Assembly: GCA_018402255.1 (NCBI GenBank)
Contig: JAGYIS010000008.1
Coordinates: 558,001 to 622,000, forward strand
Direction of reading: 5' to 3'
DNA length: 64,000 bases
Source: Marinobacter sp.
Lineage (GTDB): Bacteria; Pseudomonadota; Gammaproteobacteria; Pseudomonadales; Oleiphilaceae
In this document: one piece after another, positions 22,222 to 63,948 of the stretch
Layout: each line of letters starts with the position of its first letter
Position numbering within the stretch: the stretch's first letter is position 1
The notes under the pieces: model-generated
Told to the model about the DNA's origin: nothing
What the model saw: the letters and a program-made list of their open reading frames with translations, nothing else
The model's database searches: none
Program-made: the position numbers and the translations under genes

Positions 22222-22379
22222 GGTTTACACAACAAGGATTGTTGCATGATCGAGATTACTCACCACGGCGCCATAAACGGCGTGACTGGCTCCTGCCACG
22301 AACTCCGAATGTCGCTGGCTACAAAAGGCTCTCAGTCTGCAAAAGCGCCTGCCCCCTCGGGGCCGCACCAAACACCGCC

Positions 22380-22427
22380 GGCTACAAAGGGGTCTGACCC
22401 CCTGGGGTCAGACCCCACCCTTCTGCC
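22380..22427. repeat. REP-like repeat, type A, inside the MBL gene
   Basis: Contains GGGGTCTGACCCC and GGGGTCAGACCCC separated by two bases, flanked by CTACAAA on the left and ACCCTTCTGCC on the right. It is read in frame as TKGSDP-L-GSDPTLLP in the host gene. Near-identical flanks occur at 23167. Confidence 0.85.
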
Positions 22428-23166
22428 TGAGACGATCTCCACAGCCGGCATCCTCATAGACTGCGGCCTTTTTCAAGGCTCCGAAGCCAAAACCCGCAGC
22501 ACCGCCCAAGACCTCGCCATCGACTTCCCCATCGATCACATCCGCGCCCTGGTCGTCACCCACGTGCACATCGACCATGTTGGCCGCATTCCCTACCTGC
22601 TTGCCGCCGGCTTTGACGGCCCCATCATCTGTTCTGAACCCTCCGCCATCATGCTCCCGGAAATCCTCGAAGATGCCCTGAAAATTGGCTTCACCCGGGA
22701 TCGTGCTTTAATCAACCGTGTTCTCGGTGTTATTCGTTCACGTTTGGTACCCGTGCCCTATGGCCGGTGGCACTCGGTGTTCGAGGAAGAGGCGAGTAGC
22801 TTGAAAGTTCGTTTACAACGGGCCGGGCACATTCTGGGTTCGGCCTATGTGGAGTGTGATGCGGTATCTGGCAGGTCGTCTGAGCGAATAGTCTTCAGCG
22901 GAGATCTTGGCGCTCCCCATTCGCCCCTGTTGCCAGAGCCCTCGGCCCCTGAACGTGCCGACCGCCTGGTGATTGAAAGCACCTACGGCGACAAAAACCA
23001 CGAAGATCGTGAAACCCGTCGGTATCGTTTGAAGGCAGTGTTGGAGCACGCTCTGGAGGACGGCGGCACGGTGCTGATCCCGGCGTTCAGCATCGGCCGC
23101 ACGCAGGAGCTGTTGTACGAGATTGAGGGGCTGATTGCCGAGTTTGGCGATAGCCAGATTTCGCCG

Positions 23167-23213
23167 TCTACAAAGGGGTCTGACCCCTCGGGGTCAGACC
23201 CCACCCTTCTGCC
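23167..23213. repeat. REP-like repeat, type A, second copy inside the MBL gene
   Basis: Same structure and flanks as the copy at 22380 (CTACAAA ... ACCCTTCTGCC), again in frame. A decayed half-unit (GTAGGGACAGACCCC) follows at about 23279-23293. Confidence 0.85.
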
Positions 23214-23908
23214 CGCGACTGACTCCAGCCCTCTGCCAGCGGCAGGCTCTAATCCCGACAATGTGGGCGTCAGTCCACGTAGGGACAGACCCCTTACCTG
23301 GAGCGATCTGGAAATCGTCGTCGACTCCCCCTGGCCGCCGAGTTCACCAAAATCTACCGCGACCTAAAACCCTACTGGGACGACGAAGCCCGTTCCCTGG
23401 TTAAAGCCGGCCGCCATCCGCTCTCTTTCGAGCAGCTAACGGTCATCAATTCCCACGAGGACCACCTCAATGCCGTGGAATACCTGGCGAAATCCCATCG
23501 CCCTTGTGTTGTCATTGCAGGTTCTGGTATGTGCGCCGGCGGCAGGGTGGTAAATTATCTGAAAGCGATGCTGGGTGATGCCCGCAACGATGTGCTTTTC
23601 GTGGGCTACCAGGCCGCCGGCACCCCGGGGCGGGATATTTTGACCCACGGCCCTCGAGGTGGCTGGGTAGAGCTGGACGGCGATCGCTACAATATCCGCG
23701 CCCAGATCCACACGGTCGGTGGCTATTCCGCCCATGCGGGGCAGGAGGATCTGCTGAATTTTGTAAAAGGTATTTCCGAGGCGCCCAGAGAAATTCGAGT
23801 CGTGCACGGAGATGATGGTGCCAAGCGGGCGTTGCAGGCGCAGTTGCGGAGGTGTGTGCCACACTCAGACGTTGTTATCCCAGGCTAATCCCAAAGGCTA
23901 CAAAACAT

Positions 23909-23965
23909 GCGGGGGTCAGACCCCCGCGCATTTGATGGACCAAAATGTATTTGGGTCTGACCCCA
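23909..23965. repeat. REP-like hairpin before the UDP-sugar dehydrogenase gene
   Basis: GGGGGTCAGACCCCC at the left end and TTGGGTCTGACCCC at the right end bracket an imperfect inverted repeat. It fills the gap between the MBL gene and the dehydrogenase, ending 6 nt before the latter's ribosome binding site, so it lies in the presumed leader. Confidence 0.75.
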
Positions 23966-51755: not shown

Positions 51756-53476
51756 CCCAGTCGCTGGAGAGCAAGCTGGTAACCATGCTGGAGGTGGTTT
51801 ATCCGGCGCTGGATTGCGGTTTTCTGGCGGCGCAGCTGATGGATGCGATGGGCGTGGCGGCCGATGCCGAGCCCCCGCCCGCCCACCAGAATCATTGGGA
51901 TGAATCCGACATTGTCTTGATTACCTACGCCGACACGGTGCAGCAGGCCGGAGAAAAACCGTTGGTGACGCTCAAGCGGTTTTTGGATGACTGCCTGCGG
52001 GACTCGGTCACGGCGGTTCACATTTTGCCCTTCTTTCCCTACAGCTCGGACGATGGCTTTTCGGTGATGGATTACCTGGCGGTGAACGAGTCTCACGGTG
52101 GTTGGGAAGACATCGAAGCCATCGCCGCGGACTACAAGCTGATGTCGGACCTGGTGATCAACCACATGTCGGCCCGCAGCCGCTGGTTTGAGAACTTTCG
52201 CAAGCGGGTGGGGCCGGGCAAGGACTACTTCTTTGAAGGCAACCCGAAAGATGATTTAAGCATGGTGGTGCGGCCCCGAACCTCACCATTGCTGACACCG
52301 GTGCAGACGGATGACGGCGAGCGCTATGTGTGGTGTACCTTCAGCGAAGACCAGGTCGACCTGAACTTCGCCAACCCGGAAGTGCTGATCGAATTCGCCG
52401 GCATTATTCGGGAATACCTGGCGCGGGGGGTGTTGATCTTTCGGCTGGACGCGGTGGCATTTCTCTGGAAAGAGCCGGGCACGCCCTGCATTCACCTGCA
52501 GCAGACCCACGAGCTGATCAAGATTCTGCGCCTGCTGATTGAACATCACACGCCAAACGCAGTAGTGATCACTGAAACCAACGTGCCTAACCGGGAGAAT
52601 CTCACATACTTTGGCAACGCCAACGAAGCCCATGCCATCTACAACTTCTCGTTGCCGCCCTTGCTGATCAATACTCTGGTCACCGGCAACTGCAGGCACC
52701 TGAAAACCTGGCTGATGAGCATGCCGCCGGCGCAGATGGGCACCACCTACCTGAATTTCATTGCCTCCCACGACGGTGTTGGCCTGCGGCCCACCGATGG
52801 ACTGTTGGACGAGGACGAGAAGCAGCGGCTGATCAACACCATGGAGTCCTTCGGTGGCAAGGTTTCCTACCGGCGCACCGCCGATGGCCGCGATCAGCCC
52901 TACGAAATGAACATCGCCTTGTGGGATGCCCTGAAAGGCACTGCGGAGAGTGGCGCAGATCACTGGCAGCTGCAGCGATTTCTATGCGCCCACACCATCA
53001 TGCTGGCGCTGGAAGGCATCCCCGCTTTCTATATTCACAGCCTGTTGGCCACCGAAAATGACCACGCTCGGGTAGAGCACACCGGTCGCTTCCGCTCCAT
53101 CAACCGCGGCCAATGGCAGTTCGATAGCGTAGAGGCCGCTCTGGCGGACCCACTTAGCCATCACAGTAAAGCCTTCAACGAACTGGCGCGCCTGATTGCC
53201 ATCCGCCGCGCCCAACCCGCTTTCCACCCCAACGCCACGCAATTCACCCTGCACCTGGGCCTGAAGCTGTTCGGCTTCTGGCGCCAGAGCATGCGCCGGG
53301 AACAGTCGATCTTCTGTATCCACAACATCAGCGACGAAGTGCAGCAAGTGGCCCTCACCGACATCAACCTGATCGGTACCGACCAGTGGGTTGACCTGCT
53401 CACCGGCGCCACCCTGGACGACCTGGCCGGCGTGCTCACCCTCAAACCCTACCAAAGCGTCTGGCTCTCCAACTAA
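51752..53476 (+). CDS. glucosylglycerate phosphorylase (GH13_18, sucrose phosphorylase-like)
   Basis: 574 residues. TIM-barrel GH13 protein with VHILPFFPYSSDDGFSVMDY, nucleophile region IFRLDAVAFLWKEPGT, general acid VITETNVP, and FIASHDGVGLRP. Relatives include E. coli YcjM, a glucosylglycerate phosphorylase. In this operon, with a synthase and phosphatase for the same compound, glucosylglycerate is a better substrate guess than sucrose. ATGA overlap with gpgS. It would recycle the osmolyte to glucose-1-phosphate and glycerate. Confidence 0.87.
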   Translation: MTQSLESKLVTMLEVVYPALDCGFLAAQLMDAMGVAADAEPPPAHQNHWDESDIVLITYADTVQQAGEKPLVTLKRFLDDCLRDSVTAVHILPFFPYSSDDGFSVMDYLAVNESHGGWEDIEAIAADYKLMSDLVINHMSARSRWFENFRKRVGPGKDYFFEGNPKDDLSMVVRPRTSPLLTPVQTDDGERYVWCTFSEDQVDLNFANPEVLIEFAGIIREYLARGVLIFRLDAVAFLWKEPGTPCIHLQQTHELIKILRLLIEHHTPNAVVITETNVPNRENLTYFGNANEAHAIYNFSLPPLLINTLVTGNCRHLKTWLMSMPPAQMGTTYLNFIASHDGVGLRPTDGLLDEDEKQRLINTMESFGGKVSYRRTADGRDQPYEMNIALWDALKGTAESGADHWQLQRFLCAHTIMLALEGIPAFYIHSLLATENDHARVEHTGRFRSINRGQWQFDSVEAALADPLSHHSKAFNELARLIAIRRAQPAFHPNATQFTLHLGLKLFGFWRQSMRREQSIFCIHNISDEVQQVALTDINLIGTDQWVDLLTGATLDDLAGVLTLKPYQSVWLSN

Positions 53477-53480
53477 AATC

Positions 53481-53534
53481 GGGGTCAGACCCAAGTGCAT
53501 TTGACGGGGTGAAATGTTCGCGGGTCTGACCCCG
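53481..53534. repeat. REP-like hairpin, type B, partly decayed
   Basis: GGGGTCAGACCCAAGTGCAT on the left and CGGGTCTGACCCCG on the right, with the inner right arm changed (AAATGTTCG). It follows the phosphorylase stop and precedes the promoter at 53537. Confidence 0.82.
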
Positions 53535-53536
53535 CC

Positions 53537-53565
53537 TTGAGTTTTGATTAGCCGGTTCCTATAAT
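53537..53565 (+). promoter_or_regulatory. sigma-70-type promoter of the unrecognised four-gene operon
   Basis: TTGAGT at 53537-53542, a 17-nt spacer, TATAAT at 53560-53565. It is about 40 nt before the first gene and just after a REP-like hairpin that may insulate it. Confidence 0.65.
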
Positions 53566-53604
53566 CGCCGGCCATTCGATGTTTGATTGCCCATGGAGGG
53601 GTGG

Positions 53605-55986
53605 ATGACGATGCGGAGTCTCGTCGTGCTTTCTTTTGTTGTTGTGCTCGGTGGTGCCGGTTTCATGTGGTTGACCAAGAGCACGCTCGCCTTTAGCCCC
53701 GCCGAGGGGGATGTTCGCTACTTCAAGGTTGCGGAACAGGTCGAATACTGGGGCCCGGAAAAGCGCCTGGCGCCCGAAAGTACCCTGGTGATGAGGAGCC
53801 TTCTCAGAACCGACGCTGGCCCCCTGCAAGATGATGGTTACGAGATCCGCTCCCGGGCGGTCCGCACACATTTCTCCCGTAATGGTCGGCAACTCTTCAA
53901 TGCTGGTGGTGCGGCGGCTTATGGTGCCGACATTGAGGCGATGGCCGGCCTGGCGACGTCCGGTGTTGTGCAGCGGATTTCTGAGCGCGGCAAACTGTTG
54001 CAAAGCGCCTATGCGGACTCCCGTCTTGCCTCAATCCTGCGATCTGAGCGCGATGAAGATGATGTGGCCCGCAACATGTTGCATCGCGGCCTCAGTATCT
54101 CCGCACCGTATCAAGTTGATCTGTCTGGCGGTAAACCCCGCCTGGGCGCAACCTGGAACACGCCACCGCAATACGTCGCCGGCGTTTCTATGCCTGCGCT
54201 GAAATACGAAGTCCACTATATCGACGAGCATTCGGTAACACTCAAATTTCGGAACCGAGATGCAGGCGTTGAAGGCGATCGAAAAGTAGAGGGGTATCTG
54301 GAGCTTGAGCGGCACAGTGGCTGGCCTCTGAGAGCCGGGGCAACGATCACCGAAGAGGCCGACCTGGATGGCGAGCCGATGACGCAGATCAGCCGGATTA
54401 CCCTGGAGCAAACCGGCATTGATCCGGTCACGCGCCGTGACCGACTCAGATTCAACGCCGAGCGTGCCATGTTCGCCTATGAGCTTGAGACGGATACCGA
54501 ATTATTCCAGAACTATTTTTTACCGCCTTTTGGTCCCCATACGCCAGAGGAGTCTTTGGCGTGGCTGGATCGAACGCTGCTCTGGTTTGGCCCCGGGCAA
54601 AGGGGCAAAAAGCATGGCTTGAACTATCAGACCCATGGACTGGACGTCTCCAGCTTTGAGTTCCATGCGCCAACAGCAGTGCGCCTTCTCTCTATGGACG
54701 GAGCTCCGATTGCCGAGGATGTTCAGGTTAATCCGGATTTTCTGTCGAGAGCCTGGAAAGAAAGCCTGCTTGACCCGGGCTCTGGATTAAAGCCCTTCTT
54801 GTCAGACGGCCTGAGCGATGGCCAGTTGGCATTGGTCGATCGGGTAGAGGTGGACCTGAGTGTTACCACGCCGGACGAGTTGTTTACCATCACTATGAAT
54901 CGTGGCGACACGGAGCACCACGTGGTCGGAGCCGGTGTCACGTTGACGGTTGACTCCTGGTCTTACGATAAGGCCCTTGTTCGCATGAGCCGGGATGACG
55001 GCTACCTTCCTCAAGACCAGCCTTTGGTCAGCGTGGTGCCACTAGACCGAAACGGTGAGCGGGTTCCGGCCTTCACTCCCAGAACCAGTCACTCGCTGGT
55101 TGAGCCGATGAGGGCGGCCATGCTCAAGGATTATGATTACGTCTCGCCCAGCACGTTGTCGGACTACTTTGCCGATCAGGTAGCTGTGGAGATCCTGGCG
55201 AAGCCGCTTCAGGAGCGCCGCGGCGATATGATCTACGAGATCTCCGTGCCGGAAGGCTCCACCTTTGAGGCGCTGGTGGTCTACCTGCACAGCACCCAAA
55301 CGGAGGCCAGAACCTTGGTGGCCAGAAATGCTGACGCTACGCTCAGTGGCGGCCCCGTGATCGGCGAACGTTTTCTTAACAGAACAGAGTTGTCCGATTT
55401 ACCCCCTGTATCGTTGCACTCAGAGGACGTCTCCACGAAAGGCCTGTCGACGAACTGGCTCAGTGTTGGTTTGCCCGATGGCCTGGGTGATCGCTGCGAA
55501 CTGTCCGTTGCTGGTGCACCGGAGTACCAAAGCAGCCCGCTTGATTTCTCCTACCAGAGCTACGGAGAGAGGAAAGGGCACCTTCTGACAACCGGCCACG
55601 GTGTTTCGTTCTTCTACGATTATGCGGTCGATGTGTTGGTGGACTGTGTGACTGGTGTTGAGATGAAAACCGCCGCCCCGGGTTCTGACCCGGAAGTGCG
55701 CTGGCTGGATGACAACACCGTGGAGGTGTCTGAGGCCCTGCACCAGAATCTCATATGGGCGCGCAGAGGTTTCGGTTTGCGAAGCGAGCTTCCGTTCGTC
55801 GCATTCAGCAAGGACGGTTTGGCGCTGGAGCCGCTGACGGAAGGCGTGTATGGGAATTTTACTATGTATGACCAGCCTGTAGGTCGTCGCTTCCGGTTTT
55901 GGGGTGAGGTGGCGGAAGTCCGGTATCCGGCCCGTGTGAATCGTGAATCCATTCAGTTGCCGGTGCAGTTTCCGCCACTTCCCTGA
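53605..55986 (+). CDS. unrecognised large membrane-anchored protein, paralogue 1
   Basis: 793 residues from ATG 53605; starts at 53593 and 53611 are also possible. I do not recognise the family. One hydrophobic segment at ~4-22 is a signal anchor, and the rest is soluble and probably periplasmic. It is paralogous to the protein at 59581: both share GDVRYF, YLELER-SGWP, a PPFG and RTL-WFG segment, PTAVRLL/VTAVRLL-like stretches with NPDF, and a C-terminal LPFVAF with FWGE-like ending. Repeated beta-rich spacing suggests an extracytoplasmic binding or scaffold role. First of four genes, only 30 nt from the next. Confidence 0.75.
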   Translation: MTMRSLVVLSFVVVLGGAGFMWLTKSTLAFSPAEGDVRYFKVAEQVEYWGPEKRLAPESTLVMRSLLRTDAGPLQDDGYEIRSRAVRTHFSRNGRQLFNAGGAAAYGADIEAMAGLATSGVVQRISERGKLLQSAYADSRLASILRSERDEDDVARNMLHRGLSISAPYQVDLSGGKPRLGATWNTPPQYVAGVSMPALKYEVHYIDEHSVTLKFRNRDAGVEGDRKVEGYLELERHSGWPLRAGATITEEADLDGEPMTQISRITLEQTGIDPVTRRDRLRFNAERAMFAYELETDTELFQNYFLPPFGPHTPEESLAWLDRTLLWFGPGQRGKKHGLNYQTHGLDVSSFEFHAPTAVRLLSMDGAPIAEDVQVNPDFLSRAWKESLLDPGSGLKPFLSDGLSDGQLALVDRVEVDLSVTTPDELFTITMNRGDTEHHVVGAGVTLTVDSWSYDKALVRMSRDDGYLPQDQPLVSVVPLDRNGERVPAFTPRTSHSLVEPMRAAMLKDYDYVSPSTLSDYFADQVAVEILAKPLQERRGDMIYEISVPEGSTFEALVVYLHSTQTEARTLVARNADATLSGGPVIGERFLNRTELSDLPPVSLHSEDVSTKGLSTNWLSVGLPDGLGDRCELSVAGAPEYQSSPLDFSYQSYGERKGHLLTTGHGVSFFYDYAVDVLVDCVTGVEMKTAAPGSDPEVRWLDDNTVEVSEALHQNLIWARRGFGLRSELPFVAFSKDGLALEPLTEGVYGNFTMYDQPVGRRFRFWGEVAEVRYPARVNRESIQLPVQFPPLP

Positions 55987-56016
55987 TTTGCCAGAACCTT
56001 TTGCGTGGACATAGTC

Positions 56017-57510
56017 ATGATGAATCGACGACTCGTTTTTATTCTTTTGCTTTTGCCCCTGTGTGTTCAGGCAGGCCAACGTGTCTGGCTGCAGGAGGAC
56101 TGGCGCTACTTTGATGCGGCAGACCCGGATGACCGCAGGGCAAAGTATCTCGAAGTGCCCTTTGCCAAAGAGGGAGATCGGTACCGGGTAGTGGTGCGTT
56201 ATCCGGACGGGCAACTTGCCATGGAGGGGCAGTCCCTGACGCCGGAGTTTAATCGCTACGCCCTGCTTGGAGACGTTCGGGAGTATTACCCTGATGGGCA
56301 GCTGGCTCGGGAAACGCACTACATTCCGCGTGATGATGTTTGCAACTGCGGGCGATCAACGCCGGTTGAGCACGGTGAGTCTGAGGAGTATTTCCCGAAC
56401 GGTCAGCTAAAGCGCAAGGTTACCTACTATGGCGGTGGTTTGGTCGATGGTGACTATCAGGAGTTTGACTCTGAAGGCAGGGTTGCCCGTGCCTATACGA
56501 TGAAGAGCTACCGAAAACATGGCCTTTACACCGAGTACAGGGCGGGAAGGCCGGTACTGGAAGAGCAGTACATGAATGGCCGGAGCCAGGGAGTCCAGAA
56601 GAGCTACTACCCAAACGGTGCCTTGAAACGCATCTATTTTGTTGGTCAGCACTTTGAGCCTGAAGGTGAGGACCGCACCTTCAGCGAAGTCGGAACATTG
56701 AAACGCAATGTGATGCGAGTGCTGGATGACAGTGGAAGAGAAGTTGAACGGCGTGAGGAGCACTACGGCGAGGCGGAGCAGTTGCGGAGTTTGCATCATA
56801 AAAAGCCCGGCTGGGAGCTAGCGGAAGAGTATGACGAAAACGGCAACCTTGTTGCCCGTAAGGAGGAGGGGCCGAACGGTTACCAGGGCCTGTTCATCCA
56901 AAAAGACTGGCGCAACGTGATAACCGCTCATTACGTGGATGGTGTGTTGCACGGGCGATTCGTCGAGACGTCTTCAGGGGAGGAGCGAGTTGAAGGCAAC
57001 TACGAGCATGGCGAGAAAACGGGTTTATGGCTGAGTGTGGCGCGGGATGGCTCTCGTGAAGAGGCTCGTTACGAAAATGGCAAACTGAATGGGTTGATGC
57101 AGGTGATTGATGCCGAGGGTATTCGCAGGGCTTATATCACCTACAAGAACGATGAAAAGCATGGCCCGGCAGACCACGAAACAGAGTCGGGTAATCGGGT
57201 GGTGACGTCTTACTATGAGGGCGAACCAGACGGCGATTACCTTGAATACACCAGGCGTGGCCGGCTGATTGAGAAGGCCCACTATCGCCGGGGCAATCTG
57301 CACGGTGCCCAGTATAGCTTTGACCGCGAGGGCCGGATGGCAAGCAAGCGAAGTTACCGTGATGACGTTCCCCACGGCGAGTTTCTTGAAACGGGAGACT
57401 TCGGACAGCACCTTTTTAGCCTTCACTATGACAACGGGGAAAGGGTGGGAGAAGGCTCCTTCTATATGGATTTATCTCCGGATTCAGGATCAGGGACGAT
57501 CACCCGATGA
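56017..57510 (+). CDS. secreted MORN-2-repeat protein
   Basis: 497 residues. A signal peptide at ~1-20 (hydrophobic FILLLLPLC, cleavage after VQA) is followed by about ten MORN_2-type repeats of ~22 residues, such as YYPDGQLARETHY, YFPNGQLKRKVTYY, YYPNGALKRIYF and YENGKLNGLMQ. The YwqK group, which carries these repeats, is often named as an antitoxin but its role here is not shown. ATG 56017 is preferred over GTG 56005. It ends overlapping the next gene by 4 nt (ATGA), so translation is coupled. Confidence 0.83.
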   Translation: MMNRRLVFILLLLPLCVQAGQRVWLQEDWRYFDAADPDDRRAKYLEVPFAKEGDRYRVVVRYPDGQLAMEGQSLTPEFNRYALLGDVREYYPDGQLARETHYIPRDDVCNCGRSTPVEHGESEEYFPNGQLKRKVTYYGGGLVDGDYQEFDSEGRVARAYTMKSYRKHGLYTEYRAGRPVLEEQYMNGRSQGVQKSYYPNGALKRIYFVGQHFEPEGEDRTFSEVGTLKRNVMRVLDDSGREVERREEHYGEAEQLRSLHHKKPGWELAEEYDENGNLVARKEEGPNGYQGLFIQKDWRNVITAHYVDGVLHGRFVETSSGEERVEGNYEHGEKTGLWLSVARDGSREEARYENGKLNGLMQVIDAEGIRRAYITYKNDEKHGPADHETESGNRVVTSYYEGEPDGDYLEYTRRGRLIEKAHYRRGNLHGAQYSFDREGRMASKRSYRDDVPHGEFLETGDFGQHLFSLHYDNGERVGEGSFYMDLSPDSGSGTITR

Positions 57511-59546
57511 AAAAAACTCTTATTTTGCTAGCAATCGTTTCCGCCCTCGTTGTTCTTGGATTTCTGGTTCCAGGCATGGCGGGTTCTGGGCAGGAAACGC
57601 CATCGCAGCGAGTCTTTACGGGGCTGGCTTTCGGCGGTGAGGGTGTGTTTGCTGTCGGGGAGGCGGGGGCTATTCGGGTGTCTGACAATAACGCGGACAG
57701 CTGGCAAGTGGTCAGCTCAGGCGTTGAGCACACGCTGACCGCCATTGAGTTTGTCACCGAAAAGCAGGGCTGGGTTACAGGGCACAATGGCATTGTTTTG
57801 CAAACCCTGAATGGAGGTAGAAGCTGGCAGCAGGTGCAGGTTGCCGGTGAAGAACACCCGAATTTGGCATTAATGGATGTCACGTTTGGCAAGGATCAAC
57901 AAGGGCTGATTGTTGGTGAGGATAATCTGATCCTGGCCACCCGGGATGGCGGCGATAGCTGGTCTCGCGAAGTCTATAAAGCCGGGCGATTTTCTTCCAT
58001 CCATAATGCCGCGCTGTTGCTCGACAGTGGCCATGCTCTGATTGCGACCAGCGTGGGCGAAATGCTGGTTCGCTTGCCGGGGGAGCACGAGTGGAACCGG
58101 GTGCATGGGCCTGGTCGCAAGGCTCTGCTCGGCATGATCGATCTGGGGTCTGGCAGGGTACTGGCGTTCGGTTCTCATGGGCTGATACTGGAAACAGCGG
58201 ATGCCGGAGCCACCTGGAATGAAGTTAAAGCCACCAGCTCCGCCAACTACCTGGCTGGTGCACACCTTGGTGATGGCAGCGTTTTGCTGGTTGGCAGCGA
58301 AGGCATGGTGGTTCGCCGTCATGCCGGAGAGGCCATGTTTCTGCAGGATGAACATTTGCCGCCGGGAACCTTGACCGGAGTTGTGGAAGGACAGAATGGA
58401 CGACTACTGGTAACCGGTGCTCAGGGAACTGGTTTTCTTGCCGACAATGATTACCACTTTGCAGGCACGGATAAGGCGAATCCATACACGGGCTACCTGC
58501 TGACCAAGGCGCTTTTGCATCGTCCAGAGGTGGTGCGGCTTCTTGATCTGAACACCAGCAGCTTTCGGCGTTCATTCGGCGATGCGCCGAAGGACCAGGC
58601 AAGCTGGGTCTCTGTGACTGTCTCTGCCAGATCGGAAGCAGACGATGTTCTGACGCCTGCGGTGTTTAACGACATTCACCAATTGCACGAAGCTCTGGCA
58701 GAGCAGCGGTTGCAAGGGAAGCTTGGTCTCTTGGGTGTGACGTCTCTTTGGAGCGAGGATCAGAAGCACATTGTTCTTGACCGCTCTACAGGAACCCATC
58801 ACCCGGTAGTCTCACGTTCCAGGGACTATAGCGATGAAGAACGACCCTACCTTGAAAAACGCATCTTTCAGTCCGGACTGGCGGGCAATGTCGTCTCTGA
58901 AAATTTCCGGTCCATGACTCTGCAGGCCGAAGTTGACTTGTCTGAAGAGGTGGACGGCAATGCACCCTCAGCGTTGGTTTCATTTTTCAAAGACTATCAG
59001 AACAGCTTTGACGCACAGTCACCCGCCTATACGGTTGATAAGCTTGAATATGTGAGCTTGCAGAAGTTATACGAAACTTTGCCGGACACCGAAAAGGGGG
59101 CTGACAGCCAGGATATACCAGCACAGTATCTCTACGAGATTGCTCTGAAAACGGCTGATTCGCACCGTTGCAGCACCGAAGAGGCATTAAGGCTGTCTGC
59201 CGATCTTGAAAATCATCTCTCTGGTGAATCTCTGGATGGGGAGCTTCTCTCCGTGGCCAAACTGTTCAAATACAATCAGGTAGCCAGGCACGATGGAAAC
59301 TGGAAGTGGTTCTCGGCCGACGGTTATCAGCAATGGTATAGCCGTGGGGTGCACCTGCTTTGGGAGCATTCGAGCTGTGTGAACCCGTTAGCCCTTGTTA
59401 TCGGCAAGCACGGAGCAAAGGATGAGTCAGGACGAATAAGCGAGATGCTGGGTCAGTTCGAGGAAGCAAAAGCGCTGGCAGAATCCGATAAAAGCCTGAA
59501 TTTGAATGTATACCGGCTTGACCGGACCGCACTGACGATGCACTGA
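57507..59546 (+). CDS. Ycf48-like propeller protein with extra C-terminal domain
   Basis: 679 residues. A signal peptide (~1-28) precedes a Ycf48-like beta-propeller at ~30-325 with repeating GWVTGHNGIVLQTLNGGRSW and GLIVGEDNLILATRDGGDSW blades. From about 365 to 475 the sequence (WVSVTVSARSEADDVLTP, LGVTSLW, LSEEVDG) resembles part of the periplasmic porter domain of RND/MMPL transporters, but no membrane helices follow. Two cysteines (HRCS, HSSCVN) lie in the C-terminal helical part. Ycf48-like proteins are often beside RND/MMPL genes; here the two seem joined. Confidence 0.78.
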   Translation: MKKTLILLAIVSALVVLGFLVPGMAGSGQETPSQRVFTGLAFGGEGVFAVGEAGAIRVSDNNADSWQVVSSGVEHTLTAIEFVTEKQGWVTGHNGIVLQTLNGGRSWQQVQVAGEEHPNLALMDVTFGKDQQGLIVGEDNLILATRDGGDSWSREVYKAGRFSSIHNAALLLDSGHALIATSVGEMLVRLPGEHEWNRVHGPGRKALLGMIDLGSGRVLAFGSHGLILETADAGATWNEVKATSSANYLAGAHLGDGSVLLVGSEGMVVRRHAGEAMFLQDEHLPPGTLTGVVEGQNGRLLVTGAQGTGFLADNDYHFAGTDKANPYTGYLLTKALLHRPEVVRLLDLNTSSFRRSFGDAPKDQASWVSVTVSARSEADDVLTPAVFNDIHQLHEALAEQRLQGKLGLLGVTSLWSEDQKHIVLDRSTGTHHPVVSRSRDYSDEERPYLEKRIFQSGLAGNVVSENFRSMTLQAEVDLSEEVDGNAPSALVSFFKDYQNSFDAQSPAYTVDKLEYVSLQKLYETLPDTEKGADSQDIPAQYLYEIALKTADSHRCSTEEALRLSADLENHLSGESLDGELLSVAKLFKYNQVARHDGNWKWFSADGYQQWYSRGVHLLWEHSSCVNPLALVIGKHGAKDESGRISEMLGQFEEAKALAESDKSLNLNVYRLDRTALTMH

Positions 59547-59580
59547 ATTAACAAACTGAAAATCCATGGAAAGGACATTA

Positions 59581-61731
59581 ATGATGAGGATTATCGCAGT
59601 ATTGGCCTGCGTATTTGCGCTGGGTTTAGCGGGGGCTATCTGGCTATCCGATCAAGAGACCCTGGCCTTCGATCCCGAAGCAGGCGATGTTCGCTACTTT
59701 GTTGTCGATCAGACTTCAGACGTGAGCATGCCGGGGTGGGCTAATCGAAAAGGTATCTCCAGTCATACAAACAGTATCCTTCGCAGCGAAGTTGTTCATG
59801 CCGGAGATGATTATACCGAGTTACGCTCCGGGGTGGTCAGGGCTTCGGAGCGAGTTGGCCGTCGAACGCTTGTCGATACAGAGTCCGTCGGTCGCCAGAG
59901 TGATGAAAAAACCCGCCTGGCGGACTTCCTCAAAGCCGGTGTGGTTGAGCGTATCAGCCATGGCGGGGTGCCGATGGATGCGTCATATCAGGGGCCTTCA
60001 GATGGACTCGAAAGCGTTGAGGCGCGGCCAGAGTTTCTTCAGGTTGTGCTGCTCAGAAGCCTTCGACTGTTTGCGTGGTATCCGGCTCAGTTTCCGAGCG
60101 ATGAACTTGCAGCCGGAATGACGTGGCAAACAGCGGAGCGGGAGATGGACGGCTTAACCCTGCACCCGCTCCAATTTGAAGTCAGTCATCTTGATGATCA
60201 GACCGTGACCTTGACGTTTGGCCCTCTTGATCCTGAGCGTGAGGTTCAGGCGAATGCCTACCATATTTCGGGTTACCTTGAGCTGGAGCGAGAGAGTGGC
60301 TGGCCGCGGCAGGCTGCTGCAAAGGTTCTTGGTGGGGCAAATTACCGTGGGACCATGTTCGAGGTAAACAGCCGCCTGTCGCTCAGGCAGACGGATATAC
60401 CTCCGGGGCCCGAGTCGGACCGGTTGCTTTCTCAGGCCGAGTGGTCTGTGCGGGCTCTCCCGGTTGACACATCCAGTTCCGAGTTCGCCCGTCACTTTAA
60501 ACCCCCATTCGGGGCAGTGTCGGCGGATCAGGGATTGGCAAAGCTGAGCAGAACATTGGTGTGGTTCGGAATGCAGCCAGTTGACTATGGCTACAGGCGA
60601 GGTCTGGGGGTCGAACCACAGGTAAACTCAAGCGATTTGGAGCGAGTGCAGTTCTCGCCAGTGACAGCCGTGCGACTGCTGGGCTCGGACGGGGAGCCAG
60701 TGGGGAATAATGTAGTGCCCAATCCGGATTTCACGTTACTCAAACCGGACGCTGGTCAGAGCCGACCCCGGTCGGACCGGTTACCTTTTCTAAGGCAGGA
60801 GTTAACGGATGATCAGCTCGAATCTGTTGATACGATTGAGCTCGACATGAGGGTAACGCGGCCAGACAAGATGCAAACGGCCCTGTTAACACCGTCGCAG
60901 AAGCAGATTGAATTAGACAGCGCAGGTTTGACGTTGACCATCGAAGACTGGAGCCCCGAGCGGGTGCGCATCCGTGTAGCAACAGAAGAGGGTATTCCGG
61001 TGGGTGAATTACCGCCCGTAATGGGCTACCCGGTGGACCAGTCTGGAGATGCGGTTCCCCAGTTTACGATGCGAATGGCCCATTCCACGATTGAATCGGC
61101 ATTAGCGGTGATAGACACCGCTTCAGCAAATACCCGCGGGGGAAAGCGGGAAATGGCAAAGGTGTTCCTCGATTACCTTGAAGCACTGCCGCCTCATGAG
61201 AAGAGAGGTGTGTTCATTTTCGAGTACACCGGAACACAATTGCATCCGGTGGATCGTCTTCAGTTCCATTATTACAGCACCAAGACGGAAGAGATTACCC
61301 TGAGAGTCCCTTCGGCGCTCAAAACGCTCGGTGGAGGTAAAGTGGTATCCGAGAGAACGCTGTATCGGGGTAACGTGCCAAGATTTGACCTGAAGTCTGA
61401 GCGTGATGAGGCTGCGAGCTATCGGATGGAGCGCAGTGCCCTGCCGATGGTGTCGGCGGGTGGTAATTCGCAACTGGAGCAGGTTGAGAACGGGACGCTG
61501 AAAGTCAGTGAGGAGTTTTTAAAAACGCTGCAGGAGGTGCAGTCGGCGTTTAGCCTCAAGCAGCTGCCATTGGTCGCCTTCAATGAGGAAGGCGGTGCGC
61601 TGTTTCCCCTCGGCAATGGCTGGCCCGGTCCTGAGCTTGAGCGGCTTCAGGATGGCAGTGGTCTGATCCGTTATTGGGGGGATATTGCCTCAGTGGAGTA
61701 TCCGGTGAGCGCCCCGCAAGGTGATCGTTGA
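59581..61731 (+). CDS. unrecognised large membrane-anchored protein, paralogue 2
   Basis: 716 residues from ATG 59581, where AAGGA at 59571-59575 is well placed; an ATG at 59566 is less likely. Signal anchor at ~3-20. The paralogy to the gene at 53605 extends over most of its length: DPEAGDVRYFVV, GVVERISHGG, YLELERESGWP, KPPFG...RTLVWFG, PVTAVRLLGSDGEP with NPDF, LTLTIEDWS and a C-terminal LPLVAFNEEG then YWGD. It is shorter by ~75 residues. Last gene of the operon, 34 nt after the Ycf48-like gene. Confidence 0.75.
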   Translation: MMRIIAVLACVFALGLAGAIWLSDQETLAFDPEAGDVRYFVVDQTSDVSMPGWANRKGISSHTNSILRSEVVHAGDDYTELRSGVVRASERVGRRTLVDTESVGRQSDEKTRLADFLKAGVVERISHGGVPMDASYQGPSDGLESVEARPEFLQVVLLRSLRLFAWYPAQFPSDELAAGMTWQTAEREMDGLTLHPLQFEVSHLDDQTVTLTFGPLDPEREVQANAYHISGYLELERESGWPRQAAAKVLGGANYRGTMFEVNSRLSLRQTDIPPGPESDRLLSQAEWSVRALPVDTSSSEFARHFKPPFGAVSADQGLAKLSRTLVWFGMQPVDYGYRRGLGVEPQVNSSDLERVQFSPVTAVRLLGSDGEPVGNNVVPNPDFTLLKPDAGQSRPRSDRLPFLRQELTDDQLESVDTIELDMRVTRPDKMQTALLTPSQKQIELDSAGLTLTIEDWSPERVRIRVATEEGIPVGELPPVMGYPVDQSGDAVPQFTMRMAHSTIESALAVIDTASANTRGGKREMAKVFLDYLEALPPHEKRGVFIFEYTGTQLHPVDRLQFHYYSTKTEEITLRVPSALKTLGGGKVVSERTLYRGNVPRFDLKSERDEAASYRMERSALPMVSAGGNSQLEQVENGTLKVSEEFLKTLQEVQSAFSLKQLPLVAFNEEGGALFPLGNGWPGPELERLQDGSGLIRYWGDIASVEYPVSAPQGDR

Positions 61732-61787
61732 GTAGGCGTTGATTGCCACTGAGAATATGATTTTGTTGAGGAGTAGCGCAAAGAACG

Positions 61788-61854
61788 GTGGTTTGTAATC
61801 CACGACTGTGCGGTTATAATCGGTCGGGCTCAGGATGAGTCAGTTACAAACCAC
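61788..61854. promoter_or_regulatory. vgrG promoter with flanking inverted repeat
   Basis: TTGTAA at 61793-61798, a 16-nt spacer, and TATAAT at 61815-61820 form a sigma-70-type promoter. GTGGTTTGTAA (61788-61798) and its exact complement TTACAAACCAC (61844-61854) bracket it. The left arm covers the -35 box, so the pair may be an operator for a dimeric regulator. Confidence 0.6.
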
Positions 61855-61875
61855 TATTCTTCAGGGACCGAAGTC

Positions 61876-63948
61876 ATGCCCCAGGCAAGCGGATTGCAGT
61901 TTACCGCCCGTGTAGGCGAATTCCCCTCAGATCACTTTTCGGTAGTTGGCTTTAAGCTGTCCGAACAGCTGTCTTCCTTGTTTCATGGCCGGTTAGAACT
62001 GGCGAGCACCGACCCCGATGTGGCCGCTGCTGACGTTCTGGAACAACCGGTGGACCTGGTGGTCTGGCAAGACGGCCAGCCAGTACGGCGCTTCACCGGC
62101 GTGGTCAACGAGTTCGTCCGCGGCAACACCGGCCATCGCCGCACCGCCTATGAAGTGGTCATCCAGCCCCCGGCCTGGCGCCTGGGCCTGATGCACAACA
62201 GCCGCATCTTCCAGACCCAGAGCACCGACGCCATCGTGCGCACCCTGCTGGAAGAGCGGGGCATCATTGATACGGTCTTTGACTTCAAGCGCCCCCCTGA
62301 AGAACGGGAATACTGCGTCCAGCACCGGGAATCCGACCTTCAATTTATCGAACGCCTGGCCGCCGAAGAAGGCTGGCACTACCGCTACCAGCACGGCAGC
62401 GTGGACGGAGAAGAACAACCGGCGTTAATCATTGCCGACCACCACGGCGACGCCCCCAAGCTGGACCCGGTGCCCTGCAACACCCAGGCCGGCGGCAGCA
62501 CCAAGCAGGCCTGTGTATTCAGCTTCGCCTACGAAGAACGCATCAAAGCCGCCTCCGTGGCCATGAAGGACTACACCTTCAAAAACCCCGCTTACGCCCT
62601 GATGCACGAACAAAGCGCCGGCAGCCCCAATCACCGGGAAGACTACCAACACTACGATTACCCAGGCCGCTACAAAGCCGATGCCAGTGGCCAGCCCTTC
62701 ACCCAGGCCAGACTGGACGCGCTCAGAAACGACGCCAGCCTCGCCAAGGGCGAAAGCAACCGCCCCGACTTCACCCCCGGCGCCAAAGTCGAGCTGCAGG
62801 AACACGACAGTCAGAGCCTGAACCGGGAATGGCTGCTGACCGCCATCACCCACACCGGCAAACAGCCTCAGGCGATGCAGGAAGAAGGTGGCAGCCAGCC
62901 CACCAGCTACCACAACGACTTCACCGCCATCCCCGCCGATAAAACCTGGCGCACCGTTTATAACTACCGCAACCACAAACCCATGATGGACGGCCCCCAG
63001 ATGGCCCTCGTCACCGGCCCGGACGGCGAAGAAATCCACTGCGACCAGTACGGTCGAGTGAAAGTCCGGTTCCCCTGGGACCGCTACTCAAAGAACGACG
63101 AACACTCCAGCGCCTGGCTGCGCGTCGCCCAAGGCTGGGCCGGCGGCCAATACGGCTTTATGGCCCTGCCCAGAATCGGCAACGAAGTGATTGTGTCCTT
63201 CCTGGACGGCGACCCGGACCAGCCGATCATCACCGGCCGCACCTACCACGCCACCAACACACCGCCGTATGCGCTGCCAGAACACAAAACAAGAACCACC
63301 CTGAAAACCAAAACCCACAAGGGTGAGGGCAGTAACGAACTGCGCTTTGAAGACGAAGCCGACCAGGAACAGATCTACGTCCACGCCCAGAAAGACCTGG
63401 ACCTGCTGACGGAAAACAACCGTACCGAAGTCATCAAGAATGACAGCCACCTGACGGTGGAGAACCACCAGTTTAGCCATGTAAAAGCGGCAGACCACTG
63501 CACCACCGATGGTGAAAGCCGAGTCTCCGTTGGCGCTGATTGTAGCCAGACCATCGCCGGCAGTTTCCACCAGAAAACTGGCCGCACCATGGCATCGGAA
63601 GCCGGTACAGAAGTTCACCACAAAGCGGGCGCGAAAGTGGTGCTGGATGCCGGGGCGGAGCTGACGATTTCTGGTGGGGGCAGCTTTATCAAGTTGGACC
63701 CGAGCGGGGTTACCTTGGCCGGGCCGGGGATCAAGATTAATTCCGGGGGCAGCCCGGGGAGTGGTTCGGGGCAGGGGGCTGTGATGCCAGGGATGCCTAC
63801 GGATCTGGAAGGCCATGTTCATCACACCGTGGAGCCTGACATGTTAGCGGAGGTTCCCCTAACTGCTCCCCAGTTAAACAACCTGAGGTCTGATGCGCCT
63901 TTCTGCGAGGAATGTGTTAAGTGCCGGGACGGGGTATGTGATGTCTGA
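61876..63948 (+). CDS. vgrG: type VI secretion tip protein VgrG
   Basis: 690 residues. T6SS spike: gp27-like N-terminal part to ~390 (EYCVQHRESDLQFIERL, AAEEGWHYRY), then the gp5 OB-fold (YGRVKVRFPWDRY near 395, SSAWLRVAQGWAGGQYG, IGNEVIVSFLDGDPDQP) and a needle-like repetitive C-terminal domain. The last ~65 residues are not needle: a Gly/Ser linker and a tail with Cys pairs (FCEECVKCRDGVC) that could bind a metal or an effector/adaptor. The stop overlaps the start of a next gene, implying a cognate adaptor or effector. Confidence 0.94.
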   Translation: MPQASGLQFTARVGEFPSDHFSVVGFKLSEQLSSLFHGRLELASTDPDVAAADVLEQPVDLVVWQDGQPVRRFTGVVNEFVRGNTGHRRTAYEVVIQPPAWRLGLMHNSRIFQTQSTDAIVRTLLEERGIIDTVFDFKRPPEEREYCVQHRESDLQFIERLAAEEGWHYRYQHGSVDGEEQPALIIADHHGDAPKLDPVPCNTQAGGSTKQACVFSFAYEERIKAASVAMKDYTFKNPAYALMHEQSAGSPNHREDYQHYDYPGRYKADASGQPFTQARLDALRNDASLAKGESNRPDFTPGAKVELQEHDSQSLNREWLLTAITHTGKQPQAMQEEGGSQPTSYHNDFTAIPADKTWRTVYNYRNHKPMMDGPQMALVTGPDGEEIHCDQYGRVKVRFPWDRYSKNDEHSSAWLRVAQGWAGGQYGFMALPRIGNEVIVSFLDGDPDQPIITGRTYHATNTPPYALPEHKTRTTLKTKTHKGEGSNELRFEDEADQEQIYVHAQKDLDLLTENNRTEVIKNDSHLTVENHQFSHVKAADHCTTDGESRVSVGADCSQTIAGSFHQKTGRTMASEAGTEVHHKAGAKVVLDAGAELTISGGGSFIKLDPSGVTLAGPGIKINSGGSPGSGSGQGAVMPGMPTDLEGHVHHTVEPDMLAEVPLTAPQLNNLRSDAPFCEECVKCRDGVCDV

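Follow-up and report, generated by a model that had tools for sequence, protein, structure and literature searches.

An apparently mobile gene cassette at a T6SS island of Marinobacter links an unnamed exported protein family to a MORN_2 protein and a putative propeller-RND porter fusion

The window, i.e., the whole stretch of 64,000 nucleotides that we analyzed (positions 558001-622000 of contig C7 of a Marinobacter genome), carries towards its right-hand end four consecutive genes, here called A, B, C and A', followed by a T6SS spike gene. The features of this region that are relevant for our analysis are as follows:

53471 to 53543, no strand assigned: palindrome situated at the left junction, with a core that occurs many times in the window
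53534 to 61788, plus strand: inserted cassette of about 8.25 kb (both ends placed to within about 25 nt), comprising the four genes and a promoter
53537 to 53565, plus strand: putative promoter TTGAGT-N17-TATAAT, lying immediately within the left border of the cassette
53605 to 55986, plus strand: A, 793 aa, N-terminal hydrophobic anchor
56014 to 57510, plus strand: B, about 498 aa, MORN_2 repeats, signal peptide-like N terminus
57507 to 59546, plus strand: C, 679 aa, Ycf48-like propeller and two RND porter-like domains
57612 to 58436, plus strand: propeller part of C (PF14870), about residues 36-310, approximate limits
58611 to 59018, plus strand: residues 369-504 of C, matching the RND N-terminal periplasmic domain
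59157 to 59462, plus strand: residues 551-652 of C, matching the RND C-terminal periplasmic domain
59581 to 61731, plus strand: A', 716 aa, a second, divergent copy of A
61793 to 61820, plus strand: promoter-like site before vgrG, present also in the empty site of genome G018
61876 to 63948, plus strand: T6SS spike gene vgrG (TIGR03361)

A preliminary description of this DNA had reported four tightly packed plus-strand genes with exported or membrane-anchored products, the outer two being paralogues and the inner two a MORN_2 and a Ycf48-like protein, and each of these points was borne out. All four open reading frames are intact, B and C overlap by 4 nt, and a simple hydropathy scan found a single hydrophobic segment in each protein, located at the N terminus. 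The likely start of A is the ATG at 53605, which is preceded by GGAGGGG; candidate starts of B, whose frame ends at 57510, are the GTG at 56014 or the ATG codons at 56017 and 56020. A and A' are 34% identical across their length. Leaving aside its counterpart in M. shengliensis (97%), A' is closest, of nine A genes compared, to an orphan copy in G015 (47%); C is 98% identical to the protein of M. shengliensis, the nearest named record that we encountered. Pfam searches matched B to MORN_2 (PF07661; E 8e-22) and C to PSII_BNR/Ycf48 (PF14870; E 2e-20).

The A family carries no name in any collection that we searched. Neither A nor A' matched a Pfam family even at E<=10, or an entry of NCBIfam (E<=1), PHROGs or PADLOC (both E<=0.1); membership of the paralogues in a named, characterized family, which the preliminary description had listed as a refutation, was thus not found in these four libraries. 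Searches of the PDB with A profiles gave best E values of 0.24 and 0.27, and profile comparisons with DUF1329, DUF1302, Ycf48 and MMPL proteins all stayed at E >= 0.1; A was accordingly dismissed as a recognizable relative of any of these. Many A relatives possess a lipobox, and the protein encoded in the window has a plain anchor. An AlphaFold model of A computed from few input sequences was poor (mean pLDDT 38.5), and structural comparison of this weak model returned only Ig-like matches at about residues 442-564 (best Z 5.9), to which we gave no weight.

The view of C as a Ycf48-like propeller stood for its N-terminal part, which aligned with the stand-alone Ycf48 protein at an hhalign E value of 8e-45; it did not stand for the protein as a whole, because the C-terminal half matches both periplasmic domains of RND transporters. 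This half had no Pfam match and reached a best E of only 1.5 in a sequence search against the PDB. In an hhalign comparison of one profile built from five C proteins (C-terminal halves) with another built from five Ycf48-linked RND proteins, residues 369-504 of C matched residues 84-219 of the transporter (probability 94, E 9e-8) and residues 551-652 matched residues 493-597 (probability 89, E 2e-6). The two matches are collinear, i.e., they occur in the same order in both proteins, and a GxWKWF motif is common to the second stretch of C and the C-terminal periplasmic domain of the transporter. The first matched stretch of the transporter falls between predicted helices at 25-43 and 237-255 and the second between predicted helices at 427-445 and 629-647, which is where its two large periplasmic loops are expected. 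Control comparisons of the C half gave E values of 0.85 for the reversed RND profile, 0.53 for two other RND/MMPL proteins, 0.55 for SecD and at least 0.16 for DUF1329, DUF1302 and Ycf48, and the best of 20 column shuffles reached 0.016.

When the C-half profile was run against 390 genomes of the order, with at most five candidates scored per genome, 85 of them yielded matches. With C itself set aside, the frames among the matches listed span 775-867 codons, save for two of 354 and 593 codons (G136 and G236, respectively). Each of the 19 best-scoring loci other than C encodes a protein that matches the RND profile and has 10-15 hydrophobic segments, and each also carries a Ycf48 gene; matches beyond these best 19 were judged on frame size alone. 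In the genome under study, too, the gene for a stand-alone Ycf48 protein of 382 aa is flanked on one side by a DUF1329 gene and on the other by an MMPL/RND gene. Given the ordered RND matches, the negative controls and the presence of Ycf48 in every one of the 19 RND loci, C reads as a propeller fused to the periplasmic head of its usual RND neighbor, minus the motor. AlphaFold modeling of C from few input sequences was as poor as that of A (mean pLDDT 37.7), and no fold supports the porter domains or a complex.

The nearest described counterpart of C is found in AmeABCD, a tetrapartite HAE3-RND system that gives monoterpene tolerance in Castellaniella defragrans, is described as a monoterpene exporter and contains with AmeC a relative of photosystem II stability factors (PMC6394551, in the portion available to us). 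A highly expressed cluster encoding DUF1329, YCF48-related and MMPL proteins is mentioned for a benzene-degrading culture in the accessible part of PMC13101534. Like AmeABCD, the cassette contains a Ycf48-like propeller (compare AmeC) and, by sequence profile, both porter domains of a Ycf48-adjacent RND protein (compare AmeD), the likeness to AmeD being drawn from RND relatives in Marinobacter and its order rather than from AmeD itself. Unlike AmeABCD, it possesses neither a membrane-embedded pump nor a DUF1302 channel nor a detectable DUF1329 protein, and A and B are not Ame components. The 12-helix RND pump is absent, C having one hydrophobic segment where the related MMPL protein has 14 by window hits; A, B and A' had no Pfam match to MMPL, no Pfam match to the DUF1302 outer-membrane channel was found among the four cassette genes, and the LolA-like DUF1329 was recovered neither by Pfam nor by profile similarity to A. 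A separate DUF1329-Ycf48-MMPL set is kept in this genome besides the cassette. B shares MORN_2 repeats with LIC20035-like proteins but scores 44.8 against a cut-off of 250 bits, and its usual partner is A.

The preliminary description knew of no system of such composition. Our literature searches on Ycf48/MMPL/DUF1329/DUF1302, MORN, YwqK and Marinobacter T6SS, which covered few subscription papers, recognized no such operon either. MORN did not occur in the searched text of PMC3482391, the searched text of PMC8855297 contained only "morning", and a YwqK domain is named in an effector figure legend in the part of PMC7970981 consulted. Since the cassette lacks a tested defining feature of each known system that we considered and A has no named family, we rate its make-up as new; this is a claim on composition and not on mechanism.

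Both borders of the cassette can be read from cassette-free relatives. Window positions 53417-53533 and 61789-61900 align with neighboring stretches of the ggp-vgrG gap of G018, and since both flanks are adjacent there, the insertion is placed at about 53534-61788; in G069 and G025 the right-hand match begins at 61812. Among 13 cassette-free ggp sites that were fetched (genes in fetched genomes were called from open reading frames and composition), vgrG follows ggp directly in three (G018, G069, G025), other genes precede vgrG in five (G116, G043, G008, G091, G035), vgrG is missing from two (G058, G001), and the remaining three lie at a contig end (G118, G015, G038). In G081 both flanks align (87% and 92%), the cassette between them is not alignable at the DNA level, and its proteins are 35-48% identical to those of the window. 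In comparison with M. shengliensis, nucleotide identity rises at the left end of the operon from a mean of 87% (81-93%) to 97% (90-100%), and dS is 0.62 for the flanking gene versus 0.03-0.13 for the cassette. This step in identity, together with the low dS of the cassette, points to its recent exchange between species. On the basis of these alignments, it appears well supported that the four genes form one mobile, polymorphic insertion, of which relatives carry divergent versions or two units.

The cassette genes might also be decaying passengers with no present function, a reading for which one could cite G081 and G038, whose A copies contain in-frame stops, and G099, where A is a fragment. 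We regard it as very improbable: the window genes are intact, their dN/dS of 0.15-0.33 relative to M. shengliensis suggests constraint, and the promoter is kept at the site in all four genomes that carry the cassette there. In G104, the left flank of the window can be aligned through roughly the first 110 bases of the first A gene (window 53605-53717), and the rest of the window A aligns with the second A of that genome (L027 10169-10281 and 16481 onward), a pattern that looks like units being exchanged or added by crossover within the signal region. No relative of A was found in viral contigs, where 16 matches to C covered the propeller part only, and plasmids contained no relative of A or of the C-terminal half of C; a viral-contig or plasmid origin was therefore discarded.

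The claim that the operon has its own promoter held in part. The TTGAGT-N17-TATAAT motif is present, and the four genomes just mentioned all retain its two hexamers 17 nt apart, with differing spacers; a generic scan, however, found three such sites where 3.3 are expected, so that the motif alone is not above chance. Because the promoter-like site before vgrG is present in the empty site of G018, vgrG need not use the operon promoter, and this site, together with palindromes at the left junction and, in G104, between C and vgrG, suggests that the cassette is probably transcribed apart from vgrG.

While the tight packing of four genes was confirmed, the recurring unit consists of three, and the initially described four-gene operon is this unit plus an extra A. 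A-family genes occur in 8 of 124 Marinobacter genomes, five of which have a full-length C. A-B-C units are found in this genome, G065, G104 (two in tandem, A-B-C-A-B-C), G081 (its A containing the in-frame stop) and G015, and the combination of A-B-C with a lone A' was seen only in this genome and in M. shengliensis. A' and other single A genes hence appear as extra or orphan copies of a recurring A-B-C unit. Across five units, of which the G081 A and one G104 B are partial, the pairwise identities of A, B and C correlate at 0.96-0.97, or at 0.81-0.90 once one close pair is removed, and this correlation indicates that the three genes travelled mostly as one block. At its right end, the T6SS island contains A copies that are orphaned or broken (L033, L034, L031 and L028:15307-17499), near a gene with a below-cut-off Clp_N match.

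Outside Marinobacter, profile searches in which two candidates were scored per genome found A in five further genomes among 390 of the order and in three further genomes among 369 of the class; A was also present in 15 of 46 genomes of family f43. We examined 21 of the 22 non-Marinobacter places, leaving aside the weak match L132; 17 of the 21 come from family f43 and are not independent. The B profile, built in part from loci that were later counted (L060, L061, L062, L065), placed B downstream of A on the same strand in 18 of the 21. Together with the A-B-C units of other Marinobacter genomes, this shows that gene families of the operon co-occur elsewhere, although the neighborhood survey suggested at the outset had asked about all four. 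The two genes are adjacent or overlapping in 16 of these 18 loci and about 850 nt apart in L136, where an opposite-strand gene lies between them, and L144; L064, L066 and L135 are devoid of B. MORN_2 was seen independently by Pfam in L060, L061 and L133 and was not seen in L134. Beyond f43 and Marinobacter, A-B pairs are present in G263, G666 and G697. C was encountered in none of the 21 loci and is seen only in Marinobacter. A-B is thus, as judged from these profile matches, the wider-spread core and exists without C. In G666, three A-family genes stand in tandem followed by one B (L133:7087-13060).

Third partners of A-B vary by lineage. The third gene in L061 encodes a BamB-like PQQ propeller, and a small exported protein of no recognized family follows A-B in four f43 loci that were read. 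These four proteins (L136:4431-5159, L138:2322-3119, L140:4218-5012, L143:4678-5535) have about 240-285 aa as called, and one of them, compared with Pfam, gave only a weak RhlB match; by eye we take them to resemble a secretin N-domain. Such variation, and the position of A-B among what look by eye like housekeeping genes in f43, would suit a complex with a general role in envelope assembly, scaffolding or sensing, as the preliminary description had proposed; its arrival at a T6SS integration hotspot would then be a matter of chance. We nevertheless consider such a complex unlikely, as the divergence from G081, the interspecies exchange and the duplication fit badly with housekeeping, and the A family is absent from 116 of the 124 Marinobacter genomes. 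A shared envelope role in the broad sense is plausible.

The four-gene scope of the preliminary description had missed the adjoining T6SS island. vgrG starts 144 nt past the end of A'; beyond the window come a DUF4123 gene and an RHS effector gene, and G104 and G081 have VasX-like ones in this position. Twelve of the 14 Marinobacter A copies lie in this island, which extends from ggp to a ClpN-like gene (the G099 contig shows the ClpN-like end only and that of G065 stops inside vgrG), and the other two (G015, G123) lie beside a cysM-like gene. TssB is encoded by 89 of 124 Marinobacter genomes and by seven of the eight with A, the eighth (G099) being 72% complete; there is no clear enrichment. 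In f43, TssB was found in 5 of the 15 genomes with A and in 7 of the 31 that lack it, in a tally that used TssB as the sole T6SS marker and did not extend to G194, G263, G666 and G697. Since 10 of the 15 A-positive f43 genomes are without TssB, A-B is not restricted to T6SS-bearing genomes and can do without the system; in Marinobacter, the cassette is bound to the island. A second vgrG island lies on contig C6 of the same genome (L026, 1-9000), with two vgrG copies at the contig end, a DUF4123 gene, a VasX_N protein and DUF6708.

Its location invites the reading that the cassette confers T6SS-linked immunity, its exported proteins guarding against periplasm- or membrane-acting effectors of kin and its variants representing specificities. 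MORN_2 proteins are often annotated as antitoxins. All cassette products look exported, the effector genes named above are close by, and the orphan, duplicated and stop-containing copies together with allelic replacement resemble immunity arrays; in addition, the stand-alone Ycf48 protein has a weak, below-cut-off match to the Tli3 immunity family (E 0.003). The cassette thus shares with vgrG effector-immunity islands its location, a variable copy number and broken copies, but differs from effector-immunity cassettes in containing no effector, in having its own promoter and in the occurrence of A-B without TssB. For immunity genes, it would be unusual to encode proteins of 500-800 residues and to lie upstream of vgrG with a promoter of their own. 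A more usual immunity candidate, for which no Pfam family was found, is a 145-aa gene located some 400 nt downstream of the RHS effector, and no toxin gene was recognized beside A-B in f43 when gene calls were inspected by eye. On balance, we judge an immunity function rather improbable, but it is a serious contender and the main rival of the reading set out below. Comparison of the RHS effector with that of the cassette-free G018 was abandoned as a decisive test; roughly the last 130 residues, the toxin tips, differ.

We tentatively favor, at somewhat less than an even chance, the reading that the cassette encodes a mobile complex of the periplasm that has no motor, is partly akin to Ame-type hydrophobe pumps and alters envelope tolerance. 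In such a complex, A would serve as the anchor, held in the inner membrane here and as a lipoprotein in many relatives, and B would be a soluble MORN protein binding to it. C would be the head of a pump without its motor, offering or filling the surfaces at which Ame-type pumps (DUF1302, LolA-like DUF1329, Ycf48 and RND parts) meet their partners or a hydrophobic ligand. The outcome would be an envelope whose tolerance to hydrophobic or membrane-active agents is changed, with no use of the proton motive force. We prefer this hydrophobe-tolerance reading because the A-B core occurs without a T6SS and C appears to descend from an Ame-like pump pair; the Ame link is confined to C, since A shows no detectable profile similarity to Ame families and C is missing from all 21 A loci examined outside Marinobacter. 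It does not predict the residence of most Marinobacter A copies in the T6SS island, and this counts against it. While the composition and history of the cassette are well supported, the complex, its ligand and its benefit are guesses. A wider proposal appears doubtful to us, namely that such loci are undescribed mobile envelope-defense cassettes in which a motorless RND and propeller fusion joined an old lipoprotein-MORN pair, and whose alleles protect, in a strain-specific manner, against toxic hydrophobes or T6SS effectors that attack the envelope.

The apparent fusion in C is a genetic argument for contact between the propeller and porter domains when Ame-type systems are at work; contact of AmeC with the porter is only proposed in the part of PMC6394551 that we consulted. 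C also suggests that porter domains can persist without a motor, and the cassette ties a large unnamed exported family to a MORN_2 partner across several bacterial families. Were it to protect the envelope, it would represent a new kind of variable gene for T6SS islands.

The palindrome at the left junction belongs to a repeat that is common in the window. Its half GGGTCAGACCC is present in 22 copies, 11 per orientation, where 0.04 are expected, and the copies often form close inverted pairs (e.g., 22390-22415, 23176-23201, 23913-23963 and 53482-53532). This palindrome looks like a REP-type element; the copies at 22390-22415 and 23176-23201 lie within an open reading frame called at 22246-23367.
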